Positions 9,871 through 15,322 are shown, counted from the first letter of the stretch. The stretch is DNA of 64,000 nt from Burkholderiales bacterium (GCA_023511995.1 JAIMAL010000004.1:1-64000); one strand, 5' to 3'. Made by a program: numbers and translations. The notes: generated by a model not told the origin, from the letters alone.

Positions 9871-10268
9871 GAGGTCTCCCCCCCGGTGATGGTGCCGGCG
9901 GGGCGATGGCAGCGGATCACGCCTTCCGAGACTCGCTGGGCCACGCCGAGGGCATCATGGGCAAGGCCCTGGGTGTACTCCAGGATGGTGTAGCCGGCGC
10001 AACCCTGGGTGGCGACGATTTCCTCCGCCCGGCGGCGGAAGATGGGCTCCGCCTCCCCCTGTCCGCTGCGGGTGAGTTTGCCCTGACGCACGGTGATGCG
10101 ATAGAGGTCCGGCCCGATTCTGCGATCCTCCACCTCCCAGCGGAAGCCGTCGTGGGTGTAATACACCACCGCCGCCGCAGCCAGCACCTCCTTGTTGGAG
10201 AGCTTGGGCAAATCGAGGGTGGAACACCCTGCAACCAGAGGCAGCAACCACGGCAGGAGGCGCTTCAT
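9867..10268 (-). CDS. Small lipoprotein of unknown function
   Basis: 133 aa with a lipoprotein signal peptide (MKRLLPWLLPLVAGC; lipobox LVAGC, modified Cys 15). The mature part is soluble and has two further cysteines (TQGCAGYT and VIRCHRP) that could form a disulphide in the periplasm. The protein is unrecognised. It overlaps the start of the PilZ gene by four bases and the end of the phosphoribulokinase-like gene by four bases, so it sits in the middle of one tight minus-strand operon. Confidence 0.7.
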   Translation of the reverse strand: MKRLLPWLLPLVAGCSTLDLPKLSNKEVLAAAAVVYYTHDGFRWEVEDRRIGPDLYRITVRQGKLTRSGQGEAEPIFRRRAEEIVATQGCAGYTILEYTQGLAHDALGVAQRVSEGVIRCHRPAGTITGGETS

Positions 10269-11221
10269 GTCCGTCGGCGGGGCCGTTTCCGTCCCGCGAT
10301 GAGTTCCTCGATGAGGGGCGAGCAGATTACCTCCAGGGCAAGCCGCAACTTGCCCCCCGGCACCACCATGGTGTTGGGGCGCGACATGAAGGAACCGCTG
10401 ATGCGCCGCAAAAGGTCGGGGAAATCGAAAAGATGGGGATCGCGGAAATGGATGACGAGGATGCTCTCGTCCGCGGTGGGCACATCACGGGCGATGAAGG
10501 GGTTGGAGGTGTCCACCAGGGGCATGCGCTGGATGTTGATGTCGGTGATGCCGAACTGGGGGACGATGAAATGCACGTAGTCGCGCATGCGGCGCAGAAT
10601 GGTGGCGGTGACTTCCTCCACGGTGCAGCCGGCCTTGGAACAGTCGCGGTGGATTTTCTGGATCCATTCCAGATTCACCGCCGGCACGATGCCGATGAGC
10701 AGGTCCACGTACTGGGCGGCGTTGACGCCATTGCCTCCCTTGCCGCGTCGGTCGGGCATGCCGGTGGGGAGATGGGCGGGGCTTGCGCGGCGGCGTGTCC
10801 AGGTGTGGGCCGCCACTCCCCCGTGCATGCCTTCGTAGAAAAGCAGATCGGTGCCCTTGGGCAAAGGCTCCCAGGGGGTGAAGGTGCCCACCGGCTGGCC
10901 AAAGCGCCGGGCGTCGTCCTCGTCGCGGACGTAGTGGCGGATCATGCCGGTGCCCGAGCGGGAATAGGTGGCGAAAAGCTCCTCCAGCTTGTCGAAGAGA
11001 TTGCACTCCGGGCCGAACAGGCTCACCGGCTTGCCCGCCGCGGTGGATTCGGCGATGAAGCGGTCCATCTCCGGCTTTTCGAAACGGAAGAAGGCATCGC
11101 CTTTCACGAGGGCGGCGTTGATGCCCTGGCGGCGGAAAATGTCGGTGAAAGCATGGCGAACGGTAGTGGTCCCCGCCCCCGCCGAACCGGTGATGGCGAC
11201 GATGGGATGTTTGGCTGACAC
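10265..11221 (-). CDS. Phosphoribulokinase-like protein with altered substrate residues
   Basis: 318-aa P-loop kinase of the class I (proteobacterial) phosphoribulokinase family. Walker A is TGSAGAGTTTV; the family motifs GTFTPWEPLP, DLLFYEGMHGG, VNLEWIQKIHRD, VDTSNPFIARD, FMSRPNTMVVPGGK are present. The catalytic-base Asp42 is kept, but position 45 is Phe and 49 is Lys, where the Rhodobacter enzyme has His45 and Arg49 (ribulose-5-phosphate contacts), and the His near position 100 is Arg99. About 25 extra residues (139-163, Arg/Gly/Pro-rich) follow the MHGG motif. GTG 11221 follows a GGGAGGAG site. No cbb genes adjoin it; the operon carries a lipoprotein, PilZ and kinase genes. It may act on another substrate. 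Confidence 0.8.
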   Translation of the reverse strand: MSAKHPIVAITGSAGAGTTTVRHAFTDIFRRQGINAALVKGDAFFRFEKPEMDRFIAESTAAGKPVSLFGPECNLFDKLEELFATYSRSGTGMIRHYVRDEDDARRFGQPVGTFTPWEPLPKGTDLLFYEGMHGGVAAHTWTRRRASPAHLPTGMPDRRGKGGNGVNAAQYVDLLIGIVPAVNLEWIQKIHRDCSKAGCTVEEVTATILRRMRDYVHFIVPQFGITDINIQRMPLVDTSNPFIARDVPTADESILVIHFRDPHLFDFPDLLRRISGSFMSRPNTMVVPGGKLRLALEVICSPLIEELIAGRKRPRRRT

Positions 11222-11493
11222 GGCGGCTCCTCCCGGTGGCGCTTGCTTCATGCTTTGCGCATGGGCGAGAGCATAGGCCAAGGGCGCGGGGATTAGCAAG
11301 GCAGGGCAGTGGTCAGTGGTCAGGGAGCAGGGAGCGGGGGCGGTTCCGTGGTTTCAGTTTCCGCGCCAGGATGGGCGCTGTTGGGGCGGTGTTTCTGCGT
11401 TAAGATGCGGCCATGCGGTGTGGTTTTTCCCTGAATGGGGCGGGTGTGCGCCGTGGGTGGGCTTGCGCGCGGGGGTGGCGATGCGCCGGCCGC

Positions 11494-12018
11494 ATGGGAT
11501 GGATAGCGCTCGGTTTGGCCCTGCTTGCCACGGCGGGCGCGCAGGCGGAGCGGGTGGAGGGGGCGGGCCTCAACTTTTCCGTCTCGGTGCGCACGCCGGA
11601 GCAGCTTGCCGCTTTCTATTCCGCCCGGGGGTTTGCGCCGGAGACGGTGGCGCTCATCAGCCGCGCCTGTTTCCTCACCGTGGGCCTCACCAACACGCGG
11701 CAGGAGGTGGTCTGGCTTGTGCCCGCCCGCTGGCGGTTCGAGACCATGGACGGCCACCCCGTCCGGCGCATTGCCCGCGCCGACTGGGAGGCCGCCTTTG
11801 CCGCGGCGGGGGTGCCGCTTGCCCATCGCGCCACCTTCGGCTGGACCCAGTTGCCGGAAAGCCGGGACCTTCAGCCGGGGGAGCCGGTGGGCGGCAACGT
11901 GACCGTGGAACCCCCCGCAAAGCCGCTTCGCCTGATCGCCGTTTTTCCCACCGGCGAGGATGGCAAGGGATCGCCCATCGAGCTGCGGGTAGAGAACCTG
12001 AGCTGTCCTGCGCCATGA
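11494..12018 (+). CDS. Exported hypothetical protein
   Basis: A 174-aa protein with a signal peptide (MGWIALGLALLATAGAQA, cleavage after AQA) and a mature domain of mixed charge containing one Cys in SRACFLTV and one at the C-terminus (LSCPAP). An in-frame ATG at 11413 would add 27 Arg/Gly-rich residues in front of the signal peptide and is less likely. The family is unrecognised. Its stop overlaps the next start as ATGA, so it is coupled to the TlpA-like gene, which suggests a periplasmic partner or client of that thiol protein. Confidence 0.6.
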   Translation: MGWIALGLALLATAGAQAERVEGAGLNFSVSVRTPEQLAAFYSARGFAPETVALISRACFLTVGLTNTRQEVVWLVPARWRFETMDGHPVRRIARADWEAAFAAAGVPLAHRATFGWTQLPESRDLQPGEPVGGNVTVEPPAKPLRLIAVFPTGEDGKGSPIELRVENLSCPAP

Positions 12019-12524
12019 GGGTTTTCCTTCTCCTCGTCCTCTTCCTCTGTGAGGTCGCGCTGGCCGCAGAGCCCCCCGGCCTGATGCGGCTCACCCCCCG
12101 CCCCGCGCCGCCCCTGGTGCTTGCCGACATGGATGGGCGCGTGACCGATCTTGCGAGCCTGCGCGGCCGCTGGGTGATGGTGCATTTCTGGGCCAGTTGG
12201 TGCGGCCCCTGCCGGCGGGAAATGCCCACCCTGGTTTCCGTGATGCGCACCTTGCCGCGGCAGCAGCTGACGGTGCTCCTCGTCAACACGGCGGAAGGGG
12301 ACGACGAGGTGTTCGCCTTTCTTGCCAGCGTGGCACCGGAACTGGATACCCTCATGGACCGCGACGGGCAGACCACCGCGCGTTGGGCACCGCGGGGTTT
12401 GCCTTCCACCTTCCTCGTCGATCCCGAAGGACGCCTGCGTTACATTGCCTTAGGGGGCCGCGACTGGTCGGCACCGCTCTATCTCGATTTCCTACGGGCG
12501 CTCACCGAGGCCAGGGGGCCCTGA
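12015..12524 (+). CDS. TlpA-like periplasmic thioredoxin
   Basis: 169 aa with a signal peptide (MRVFLLLVLFLCEVALAAEP) and a TlpA/ResA-type thioredoxin fold. The redox centre is WASWCGPCRREMP, and the cis-proline loop is RGLPSTFLVDPEG. Such proteins reduce disulphides in the periplasm, for example in cytochrome c or copper-site assembly; the client here is unknown. Translationally coupled to the exported protein upstream. The CCAEP radical SAM gene starts 98 bases downstream. Confidence 0.85.
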   Translation: MRVFLLLVLFLCEVALAAEPPGLMRLTPRPAPPLVLADMDGRVTDLASLRGRWVMVHFWASWCGPCRREMPTLVSVMRTLPRQQLTVLLVNTAEGDDEVFAFLASVAPELDTLMDRDGQTTARWAPRGLPSTFLVDPEGRLRYIALGGRDWSAPLYLDFLRALTEARGP

Positions 12525-12563: not shown

Positions 12564-12592
12564 TTGCAGGGCGACGCGACGCCCGGTAGGCT
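12564..12592 (+). promoter_or_regulatory. Candidate promoter for the radical SAM/ATP-grasp pair
   Basis: TTGCAG (12564-12569), a 17-base spacer and TAGGCT (12587-12592) lie 30 bases before the radical SAM ATG. The spacer contains the inverted repeat GGGCG/CGCCC. The -35 equals that of the leuA promoter; the -10 is only moderate. Confidence 0.35.
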
Positions 12593-12622
12593 AGATGCCT
12601 TTCCCCATCCGTTCCGCGTCCC

Positions 12623-14071
12623 ATGCATCGCGATCTGCCTGCCCCTGCCTGCTGTACAGCCTCTGCCCCCCCCGCCGGCGGGGGATTCCGTGTCGTACTC
12701 ATCAACCCTTACGAGCTGGGTCGGCAGTCTTTCGCCATCGCCGAGGCTTCCGCCTGGTTCAAGCGGGCGGGCATGGAGGTGATCTGCCTCGACCTTGCCC
12801 TTGAGAAGCTTTCCCCCGAGGCGCTCGCGGGCGCCGGCGCCGTGGCCATCCATCTGGGCATGCACACCGCCACCCGGCTTGCGCTCGAGATTCTGCCCCG
12901 CCTGCGGGCCTGGGCGCCCGCTGCGGCGCTGGCCGCCTTCGGTCTTTATGCGCCGGTGAACGAGGCACTGCTTCGCGAGTTGGGGGTGGAGGCGGTGTTT
13001 GGTGGTGAGTCGGAGCCGGACCTCGTGCGTTGGGCGCAGGCGGTGCGCGGCGGCAGCAGGGGGGCGGTGGGGCGCGTACACACGGGAAGGATCGAATTTC
13101 TCCCCCCCGACCGCTCGGGGCTGCCCCCCCTTTCCCGCTACGCCCAGCTCGTTCTCCCCGATGGCAGCCGGCGGGTCGCGGGCTTCGTGGAAACCACCCG
13201 CGGTTGCAAACACCTCTGCCGCCATTGCCCGGTGGTGCCTGTGTACGAGGGACGCTTCCGGGCGGTGCCCCTGCCGGTGGTGATGGCCGACATCGAACAG
13301 CAGGTGGCCATGGGGGCGCAGCATATCTCCTTCACCGACCATGATTTCCTCAATGGTCCCGGCCATGCCCTGAAGGTGGTGCGGGCGATGAAGGCGCGCT
13401 TTCCGGGTTTAAGCTTCGATGCCACCATCAAGGTGGAACACCTGGTGCGCCATGCCGCGCTGCTGCCGGAGCTTGCGGCCGCCGGCTGCACTTTCGTCAT
13501 CAGCGCGGTGGAATCCCTTGACGATGCCGTGCTGGGTTATCTGGCGAAGAACCACACCCGCGCCGACTTCCTCCGGGCGGTGGCCCTCATGCGCGAGGCC
13601 GGATTGCCCCTTGCCCCAACTTGGGTGGCCTTTCATCCCTGGACCACGCTGGAAGGCTATCTCGATCTGCTTGCCACCCTGGTGGCGCTGCGGCTGGTGG
13701 AGGCGGTGGCGCCAGTGCAGCTTTCCATTCGCCTGCTGGTGCCGGCGGGCTCGCGCCTTTTGGAACTGCCGGGCTTCCGGAGGCGGCTTAAGGCCTTCGA
13801 TCCCCGCCTGCTGGGTTACCCCTGGGTGCATGAGGATCCGCGTGTGGATCACCTCCAGCAGGAGGTCTCGGCCCTGGTCGCGGCAGGGGAGCGGGCCGGC
13901 CAGCCGCGCCGCGCCATTTTCGAAGCCGTCTGGCAGGCTGCCCATCGTGCCCTCGGGCGGGAGCCGGAAAGCCTGGCAGGTCGGGATCTGGGCGAGCCTG
14001 TGGCCCATCTTTCCGAGCCCTGGTATTGCTGTGCCGAGCCCACCGAACAGCAGCTCAAGGCCCTGTTCTGA
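12623..14071 (+). CDS. CCAEP-tail radical SAM protein
   Basis: 482-aa radical SAM enzyme. Residues about 22-140 form a Rossmann-like B12-binding-type domain, but the cobalamin ligand motif DxHxxG is not seen. The 4Fe-4S/SAM cysteines are C195, C199 and C202 (RGCKHLCRHC), with FTDHDFLNG and FVISAVESL following in the barrel. The C-terminus ends in WYCCAEP (CC at 469-470), nine residues before the stop. As I recall, this tail defines a radical SAM family in which one Cys may be selenocysteine (CUAEP/CCAEP); both codons here are Cys (TGC TGT). Its product is unknown. The ATP-grasp gene starts three bases after its stop. Confidence 0.82.
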   Translation: MHRDLPAPACCTASAPPAGGGFRVVLINPYELGRQSFAIAEASAWFKRAGMEVICLDLALEKLSPEALAGAGAVAIHLGMHTATRLALEILPRLRAWAPAAALAAFGLYAPVNEALLRELGVEAVFGGESEPDLVRWAQAVRGGSRGAVGRVHTGRIEFLPPDRSGLPPLSRYAQLVLPDGSRRVAGFVETTRGCKHLCRHCPVVPVYEGRFRAVPLPVVMADIEQQVAMGAQHISFTDHDFLNGPGHALKVVRAMKARFPGLSFDATIKVEHLVRHAALLPELAAAGCTFVISAVESLDDAVLGYLAKNHTRADFLRAVALMREAGLPLAPTWVAFHPWTTLEGYLDLLATLVALRLVEAVAPVQLSIRLLVPAGSRLLELPGFRRRLKAFDPRLLGYPWVHEDPRVDHLQQEVSALVAAGERAGQPRRAIFEAVWQAAHRALGREPESLAGRDLGEPVAHLSEPWYCCAEPTEQQLKALF

Positions 14072-14074
14072 CCC

Positions 14075-15322
14075 ATGAAACGCGTGCTGCTCCTGTTGCC
14101 GGTGGCAAGCTACCGCAATGAGGATTTCCTCGCCGCCGCCCGCCGTCTGGAGGTGGAGGTGATCCCCGTGGCGGACTATTGTCCCCGGCTTGCGCCCCGC
14201 TGGGGGCTTACGCCGCTCTTGGCCGTGCCCTTCGACCGGCCGAAGGTGGCGGTGGAAATTGTGTTGGCGCATCTTCGCCAGCGCATCGATGCCGTGCTGG
14301 CGGTGGACGATCACGGGGTGGAGCTTGCCGCCCTCCTGCGGGAGAGGCTTGGGCTGCCGGGCAACCCCCCGGCGGCGGTGGCGCGGCTGCGGGACAAGCT
14401 GGCCTTCCGCGAGCTCCTGGCGCGGGAGGGTTTCCTCCATCCGGCGTTTGCGTGGTTGCCAGAGACGGTGGACCCGCAAACCTGGCCGGCACGCCCCCCC
14501 TTCCCTCTGGTGGTGAAGGCGCGCCGGCTGTCGGGCAGCCGCGCTGTGATCCGGGCCGATGACGGGCCTGCCTTCGTCGCCGCCGTGGAGCGGGCACGGC
14601 GCATCCAGCGCCGCGCCGACCGCGAGGCGGCAAGCCTGGGTCTTGTGGTGGAGTCCTTCATCCCGGGCGCGGAGTTCGCCCTGGAAGGCCTTCTCGATGG
14701 GGGGCGGCTCACCGTGCTGGCCCTCTTCGACAAGCCCGATCCCCTCGATGGCCCCTATTTCGAGGAAACCCTCTATGTGACGCCCTCCCGGCTGCCGCCA
14801 GCAAGGCAGACGGAAATTGCGCAGACGGTGGAGCACGCCTGCCGGGCGGCGGGGCTTGTCAGCGGCCCGGTGCACGCGGAAACGCGCGTCAATGACGAGG
14901 GCATCTTCCTGCTGGAGATCGCCCCCCGTTCCATTGGCGGCTTGTGTGGGCGGGTGTTGCGCCATTGTCTGGGGATGAGCCTGGAGGAGCTCATCCTCCG
15001 CCACGCCCTGGGGGAAAGCCTGCCGCGCGCCCGGATGGAGGGCGGCGCCGGGGTGATGATGATTCCCATCCCCCGCCGCGGCATCTACGAAGGCGTGAGC
15101 GGCGTGGCGCAGGCTCGCGCGGTGCCGGGGGTGACCGGGATCGACATCGCCGTGACTCCCGGCACGCTGCTCCTGCCGGTGCCGGAGGGGGCGGCCTATC
15201 TCGGCTTCCTCTTCGCCCGCGCCTCCTCCCCGGCGGCCGCGGAAGAGGCCCTGCGCCAAGCCCACGGCCAGCTGCGCTTCCACATCCGGCCGGAAGTGGA
15301 GATCGCTCCCGCCGGACGGTAG
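14075..15322 (+). CDS. ATP-grasp ligase partnered with the CCAEP radical SAM protein
   Basis: 415-aa ATP-grasp protein. An N-terminal Rossmann-like region (residues 1-100, VLLLLPVASYRNEDFLAAAR) precedes the ATP-grasp core: FPLVVKARRLSGSRAVI (ATP-binding lysine), VVESFIPGAEFALEGLLDGG, and the metal-binding HAETRVNDEGIFLLEIAPR with Glu and the following Arg. Such enzymes form amide or ester bonds by acyl-phosphate activation (carnosine synthase/PurK-like). The substrate is unknown. The spacing of three bases shows it is translated with the radical SAM gene, so the two probably act in one pathway that ligates and then radically modifies a small molecule. Confidence 0.82.
   Translation: MKRVLLLLPVASYRNEDFLAAARRLEVEVIPVADYCPRLAPRWGLTPLLAVPFDRPKVAVEIVLAHLRQRIDAVLAVDDHGVELAALLRERLGLPGNPPAAVARLRDKLAFRELLAREGFLHPAFAWLPETVDPQTWPARPPFPLVVKARRLSGSRAVIRADDGPAFVAAVERARRIQRRADREAASLGLVVESFIPGAEFALEGLLDGGRLTVLALFDKPDPLDGPYFEETLYVTPSRLPPARQTEIAQTVEHACRAAGLVSGPVHAETRVNDEGIFLLEIAPRSIGGLCGRVLRHCLGMSLEELILRHALGESLPRARMEGGAGVMMIPIPRRGIYEGVSGVAQARAVPGVTGIDIAVTPGTLLLPVPEGAAYLGFLFARASSPAAAEEALRQAHGQLRFHIRPEVEIAPAGR

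Follow-up and report, generated by a model that had tools for sequence, protein, structure and literature searches.

What might be made by a radical SAM enzyme that ends in Cys-Cys-Ala-Glu-Pro and whose gene is followed directly by that of an ATP-grasp ligase? The question is raised by a 64,000-nucleotide stretch of DNA from a Burkholderiales bacterium (GCA_023511995.1, JAIMAL010000004.1:1-64000), here called the window. The two genes are a real, conserved two-enzyme unit whose radical enzyme belongs to a named family, NF040546, and the unit is a variant of the ArsL kind, not something without precedent. Its features, all on the plus strand, are as follows.

12623-14071, + strand: CUAEP/CCAEP-tail radical SAM protein (NF040546), 482 aa, ATG start (NCBIfam, Pfam)
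12689-13060, + strand: N-terminal Rossmann-like (cobalamin-domain-like) part (alignment with ArsL, model elements E23-28 to H131-142, fold matches)
13205-13228, + strand: SAM-binding [4Fe-4S] cluster motif C195-x3-C199-x2-C202 (alignment)
14015-14041, + strand: C-terminal tail EPWYCCAEP, with C469-C470 at the C-U position of Sec-type members (alignment)
14075-15322, + strand: ATP-grasp L-amino-acid-ligase-type protein, 415 aa (PF13535, 5e-26; PF18603 LAL_C2, 2.3e-16)
14498-14950, + strand: ATP-grasp catalytic domain with invariant GP-x-F-EE, H267-A-E269, E281 and R285 (Pfam, alignment)
15059-15286, + strand: LAL_C2 domain, PF18603 (Pfam)

The radical SAM protein is a full member of NF040546 (589.9 bits against a curated cut-off of 500); it carries the C-terminal C-(C/U)-A-E-P of that family as WYCCAEP, and we found nothing that sets it apart from the other members. 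Pfam recognises the Radical_SAM domain at 1.4e-14. The original prediction began the cassette at 12564, a position upstream of the gene, non-coding and out of frame; its numbering of C195/C199/C202 and C469/C470 was correct.

The second-best family of this protein is ArsL (NF040542), at 223.7 bits; no other family exceeds 41 bits. In the opposite direction, the CUAEP model gives three ArsL proteins 336-364 bits, compared with 57-79 bits for the family that comes next for them. The cluster cysteines C195/C199/C202 are invariant across 19 orthologues and the three ArsL proteins; E31-x-G33-x-Q35 and D57 in the N-terminal part, E131 and one tail Cys are likewise invariant and common to both families, which fall in the same length class and align with tandem cysteines in their tails near the C-terminus. 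Judged by these scores and residues, the CUAEP/CCAEP family is a clear sister of ArsL. The window protein is nevertheless not an ArsL: its 223.7 bits stay below the ArsL cut-off of 450, its tail is WYCCAEP and follows an extra helical stretch of about 60 residues whereas ArsL ends in RCCLKC, and the arsenic operon context of ArsL (ArsM, ArsQ, ArsR) is absent. It may well work like ArsL, whose tail reportedly binds arsenite. ArsL adds the 3-amino-3-carboxypropyl (ACP) group of SAM to arsenite, as its product obtained by heterologous expression of the arsinothricin genes has shown, and was described in 2021 as one of only two aminocarboxypropyl-transferring radical SAM enzymes, the other being Dph2 (PMC8552651). 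The product of 12623-14071 is accordingly worded here as a predicted ACP transferase, a mode of SAM cleavage that we infer from the sister family and not from a residue proven to be diagnostic.

The tail itself (EPWYCCAEPTEQQ) encodes C469-C470 as TGC TGT at 14027-14032. When the tail was compared among orthologues for variation, the stretch from W to P proved invariant in 19 diverse proteins, save one Y/F change. CC is kept in 93 of the 93 readable tails (94 homologues); AEP comes next in 91 of them, SEP in L051, and the remaining one is cut at the contig end after CC. The suggestion that members of the tail's family can have selenocysteine in place of one Cys is supported by Thermomicrobium roseum, whose gene (L115:7935-9420) is annotated as ending in WFC. 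Its codons read TGG TTC TGT TGA GCG GAG CCG, with an in-frame TGA at the C470 position. Because the codon that ends the annotated gene is TGA and the reading frame continues beyond it as A-E-P-L-E-D-P, this TGA is very probably a selenocysteine codon. In a check for a SECIS-like fold after it, hairpins were seen, with stability no greater than that of shuffled sequences (z -0.77), and a search for SelB confined to the T. roseum megaplasmid found none there. The window's own genome does encode SelB above the curated cut-off (480 bits; G000:C1:256722-258590, L202). For this reason its organism probably decodes selenocysteine, but has Cys in its CCAEP protein where Sec-type members have Sec. Literature searches for CUAEP or CCAEP found no mention, and those for a radical SAM selenoprotein with an ATP-grasp partner returned nothing relevant.

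The AlphaFold model of the radical SAM protein has a mean pLDDT of 91.9 (about 76-87 in the tail), and its best PDB fold matches are AprD4, TsrM, MgmA and OxsB. As modelled, the fold is a cobalamin-domain-like Rossmann part followed by a radical SAM barrel. These matches lend indirect support to the B12-type N-terminal domain without DxHxxG that had been proposed; by eye the motif, a mark of cobalamin-dependent enzymes, is absent, and Pfam gives no match to the B12-binding domain PF02310. AprD4 makes a 5'-deoxyadenosyl radical and is not known to bind cobalamin. It is the best fold match (PDB 6FD2) and has a cobalamin-domain-like N-terminus like that of the window protein; it differs in that the two are 18% identical, and in that AprD4 lacks the CC tail and acts on a sugar substrate.

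The nearness of AprD4, the closest solved fold, raises the alternative that the enzyme performs canonical 5'-deoxyadenosyl chemistry on the ligase product or a cofactor, with the CC/CU tail as an extra cluster ligand or redox relay. The tandem cysteines of Dph1-Dph2, which have been proposed as cluster ligands (PMC11048331), would be in keeping with it. In sequence, however, the protein is far closer to ArsL than to AprD4 (224 against 27.5 bits), and exchange of Cys for Sec is easier to reconcile with a nucleophile or a ligand to a metal(loid) than with a structural ligand of a cluster. We consider canonical chemistry unlikely, if by no means far-fetched.

The ATP-grasp partner was where it had been placed, three bases beyond the radical SAM stop and on the same strand. 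Its nearest solved relative is the L-amino acid ligase (dipeptide ligase) BL00235 (PDB 3VOT, 1.3e-32), with which it has in common the domain order, the HAE, E-x3-R and GPxFEE motifs and the LAL_C2 domain. Both the ATP-grasp domain and LAL_C2 score above cut-off, E269, E281 and R285 are conserved, and the catalytic-domain motif residues, aligned with BL00235, are at least 95% conserved over 92 orthologues. From this likeness we infer that the enzyme joins amino acids, as L-amino acid ligases do. The relation to the BL00235 group is distant, though (116 bits), and the window ligase is linked to radical SAM and iron-sulfur genes, not to a peptide antibiotic cluster. Phosphonoalamide pathways (PMC11867202) offer a parallel, in which a small unusual amino acid is joined to other amino acids by ATP-grasp ligases. 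They differ in their phosphonate chemistry, and are not known to include a radical SAM enzyme of the window's family. One ATP-grasp orthologue (L137; G223:C251:8801-10027) contains a single in-frame TGA, from decay, sequencing error or recoding.

Are the two genes together by more than accident? A scan of species genomes for radical SAM homologues gave at least 572 confirmed stretches. The best 80 of these belong to Betaproteobacteria and Gammaproteobacteria, for instance Thiobacillus, Sulfuriferula and Sideroxydans, and the two-gene unit occurs across many sulfur- and iron-cycling bacteria. In a phylum-wide sample, which probably draws mostly on the same order, the window genome alone was positive. 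Locus statistics come from 81 loci, including the best 80 of at least 572, those nearest the window; as the DNA is GC-rich, genes were called with a codon-model caller and not as longest ORFs. In this set the gene straight after that of the radical SAM protein is the ATP-grasp gene at 40 of 81 loci; an orthologue lies within three genes at 50 and in the fetched stretch at 52. The recurrent neighbour that the original prediction called for is thus present at 50 of 81 loci (best 80 of at least 572 included), where chance would put an ATP-grasp gene within three genes at about 0.2% (one gene in about 3000). Because the loci are related and the 80 retrieved are the closest to the window, they are not independent trials. 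Neither of the two outcomes named beforehand as fatal to the cassette idea, a tail that varies among orthologues or one that never neighbours an ATP-grasp gene, was observed. The search was extended to 12 further genomes in which the fetched stretch showed no ligase or showed it 8-10 genes off: 11 carry the gene, and in the twelfth, L045, the radical SAM gene sits close to the end of a contig.

Among 274 genomes sampled evenly from the class, 17 have the radical SAM gene and 51 have the ligase. The ligase is present in 14 of the 17 genomes with the radical enzyme and in 37 of the 257 others, an odds ratio of 28 that is similar when counted roughly by family. Of the three exceptions, G156 has probably lost its ligase to a gap, since the linked carrier gene (described below) sits at a contig edge. 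Chance does not account for the pairing. Dependence runs in one direction: presence of the radical enzyme all but implies the ligase (14/17), whereas presence of the ligase does not imply the radical enzyme (14/51). Since 37 sampled genomes have the ligase without the radical enzyme, the ligase has a role of its own, and this counts against the explanation that we favour. So does the T. roseum member, with no ligase nearby nor in the 15 best-ranked of the 92 plasmid records with a match.

The ligase tree (ARRANGEMENTS) has two clades. One, of 46 rows, has every member next to the radical SAM gene; the members of the other, 49 rows, mostly stand next to an A-type iron-sulfur carrier gene, and at about four distinct points within this second clade the radical SAM gene again lies close by. 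The arrangements found are these.

Radical SAM, then ligase: window type
Carrier, then ligase, then radical SAM: L085
Ligase and carrier, divergent from YggX and radical SAM: L055, L076, L100
Radical SAM, then YggX, convergent with ligase and carrier: L094, L113, L161, L162

Such reshuffling speaks for function and not for inherited order. That the two genes are often far apart in Gammaproteobacteria might be taken to mean that their order is due to chance or inheritance, with no functional link between the enzymes. Separate lineages nevertheless join them in different ways, and co-occurrence is strong even where they stand apart; we regard the absence of a link as highly improbable.

At some loci a different neighbour was seen: at L166, L167, L168, L175 and L190, from genomes that lack the CUAEP gene, the ATP-grasp gene is immediately followed by a radical SAM gene of the AmmeMemoRadiSam type, possibly an alternative radical partner of the ligase. 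At L041, L089 and about 30 other loci, a GBBH-like_N gene (PF06155, formerly DUF971) comes directly before the radical SAM gene (33 of the 81 loci with the best 80 of at least 572, mainly Betaproteobacteria).

Of 47 loci outside the betaproteobacterial clade, 36 have an A-type carrier gene ahead of the ligase and on its strand, and in most Gammaproteobacteria the carrier gene comes immediately before the ligase gene. YggX, an iron-related protein, is encoded near the ligase at 33 of the 47, and it adjoins the radical SAM gene in several arrangements too. The carrier scores 67-84 bits against ErpA (cut-off 117), has a glycine-rich C-terminus and mostly ends in CxxC (CGGC, CGAC, CSAC, CAGC) instead of the CGC (CxC) of ErpA. 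It is a paralogue additional to the ordinary A-type carriers, with examples at:

L179:9833-10225, A-type carrier paralogue
L085:8315-8635, A-type carrier paralogue
L055:4056-4424, A-type carrier paralogue
L094:13025-13426, A-type carrier paralogue

In the set tested, strong matches to this paralogue occur only in ligase-bearing genomes, save G156. One might suppose that the ligase serves iron or iron-sulfur metabolism, its product being a small ligand for iron or an A-type carrier in modified form, and that the radical enzyme tailors this product in some lineages; the distinct CxxC-tail paralogue that tracks the ligase and the recurrent YggX fit this. The paralogue is, however, absent from the betaproteobacterial clade, the window included, YggX and the carrier may adjoin through gene order near erpA and argC and not through function, and the ligase has an amino-acid-ligase fold. 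We consider this reading improbable. The association may reflect the purpose of the pathway, or simply an insertion site next to erpA.

ArsL is also of help in judging the pair, as an ATP-grasp gene lies one to four genes from it in plasmid loci of Pantoea, Klebsiella, Priestia and Alicyclobacillus; the Pseudomonas amygdali ArsL locus has none. The genes in question are:

L204:6581-7783, ATP-grasp gene at an ArsL plasmid locus
L205:6718-7782, ATP-grasp gene at an ArsL plasmid locus
L117:656-1879, ATP-grasp gene at an ArsL plasmid locus
L206:2750-3973, ATP-grasp gene at an ArsL plasmid locus
L118:433-1665, ATP-grasp gene at an ArsL plasmid locus

They hint at peptide forms of arsinothricin; a literature search for an arsinothricin dipeptide returned nothing relevant. 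With ArsL as a clear sister and an ATP-grasp gene at some of its loci, the statement that nothing comparable is known cannot be upheld. These ArsL-locus ATP-grasps are only 22-26% identical to the window ligase and form another subfamily, which counts against the favoured explanation.

The same likeness could mean that the product of the pair is an arsenic compound, with ACP placed onto arsenite by the radical enzyme as by ArsL, and the resulting glutamate mimic coupled to an amino acid by the ligase to yield an arsinothricin-type peptide. Sisterhood with ArsL, the Cys-Cys tail in both families and the several plasmid arsinothricin loci with an ATP-grasp gene would agree with it. Against it, and against the reading that we favour as well, queries for arsenic resistance, transport and resistance acetyltransferases (ArsR, ArsB, ArsQ, aquaporin, ArsN1) gave no match within about 10 kb at the 81 loci, including the best 80 of at least 572; ArsM queries gave weak matches at L059 and L109 only. 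The window family, unlike ArsL, stands outside any arsenic-resistance operon, and it keeps the pair in 8 of 10 genomes over cut-off, more as a housekeeping function would than an antibiotic locus. We think an arsenic product quite unlikely; arsenic is a possible acceptor without support from the gene context.

Our preferred reading, to which we assign a probability of about 0.4, is that the pair forms a short pathway combining ArsL-like ACP transfer to a soft acceptor with amino-acid ligation. By homology, the ATP-grasp enzyme would use ATP to link the carboxyl of an amino acid to a second amino acid or amine. By comparison with ArsL, the [4Fe-4S] cluster of the radical SAM enzyme would reduce SAM, the C-gamma-to-sulfur bond would be cleaved to give a 3-amino-3-carboxypropyl radical, and this would pass to a soft acceptor (a thiol, a selenol, or a metal or metalloid atom) that the Cys-Cys or Cys-Sec tail holds. 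An ACP-bearing molecule of amino-acid or peptide-like nature would result. The substrate of the pair is probably thiophilic, and the product is probably a peptide-like small molecule, because the radical enzyme is paired with an enzyme of a type that joins amino acids. It had been proposed that a small molecule is first ligated and then radically modified. This order is not supported: the one-way dependence is compatible with it, suggesting that the ligase product is the substrate of the radical enzyme, and the ArsL precedent points the opposite way, suggesting that the radical step comes before ligation. More tentatively, and with a good deal of doubt, we propose a widespread pathway in which a Cys-Cys or Cys-Sec ArsL-like enzyme puts the aminocarboxypropyl group on an acceptor other than arsenic, such as sulfur, selenium or a ligand bound to a metal, and the ligase incorporates it into a new peptide-like metabolite or cofactor connected with iron-sulfur metabolism.

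The sister family of ArsL thus occurs in hundreds of genomes (at least 572 stretches), has a tail that can carry selenocysteine and is without a known product. Its conserved ligase partner is the first concrete handle on that product, and the function is testable with two proteins.

Upstream of the pair, the window holds two further genes on the same strand.

11494-12018, + strand: small exported protein, a neighbour in the window's lineage only
12015-12524, + strand: TlpA/ResA-like exported thiol oxidoreductase (profile/Pfam matches), at position -1 in the window and close relatives only

Both exported genes had been noted, one as TlpA-like, and both are there, the latter as described; they are limited to the window's lineage, at 6-8 of the 81 loci that include the best 80 of at least 572. 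As candidate pathway members they were ruled out on account of this lineage-specific occurrence and are probably not part of the system. Farther upstream, at 10265-11251 on the minus strand, lies a gene that by eye is phosphoribulokinase-like; it keeps its place upstream of the cassette throughout the lineage of the window and suggests an autotroph.
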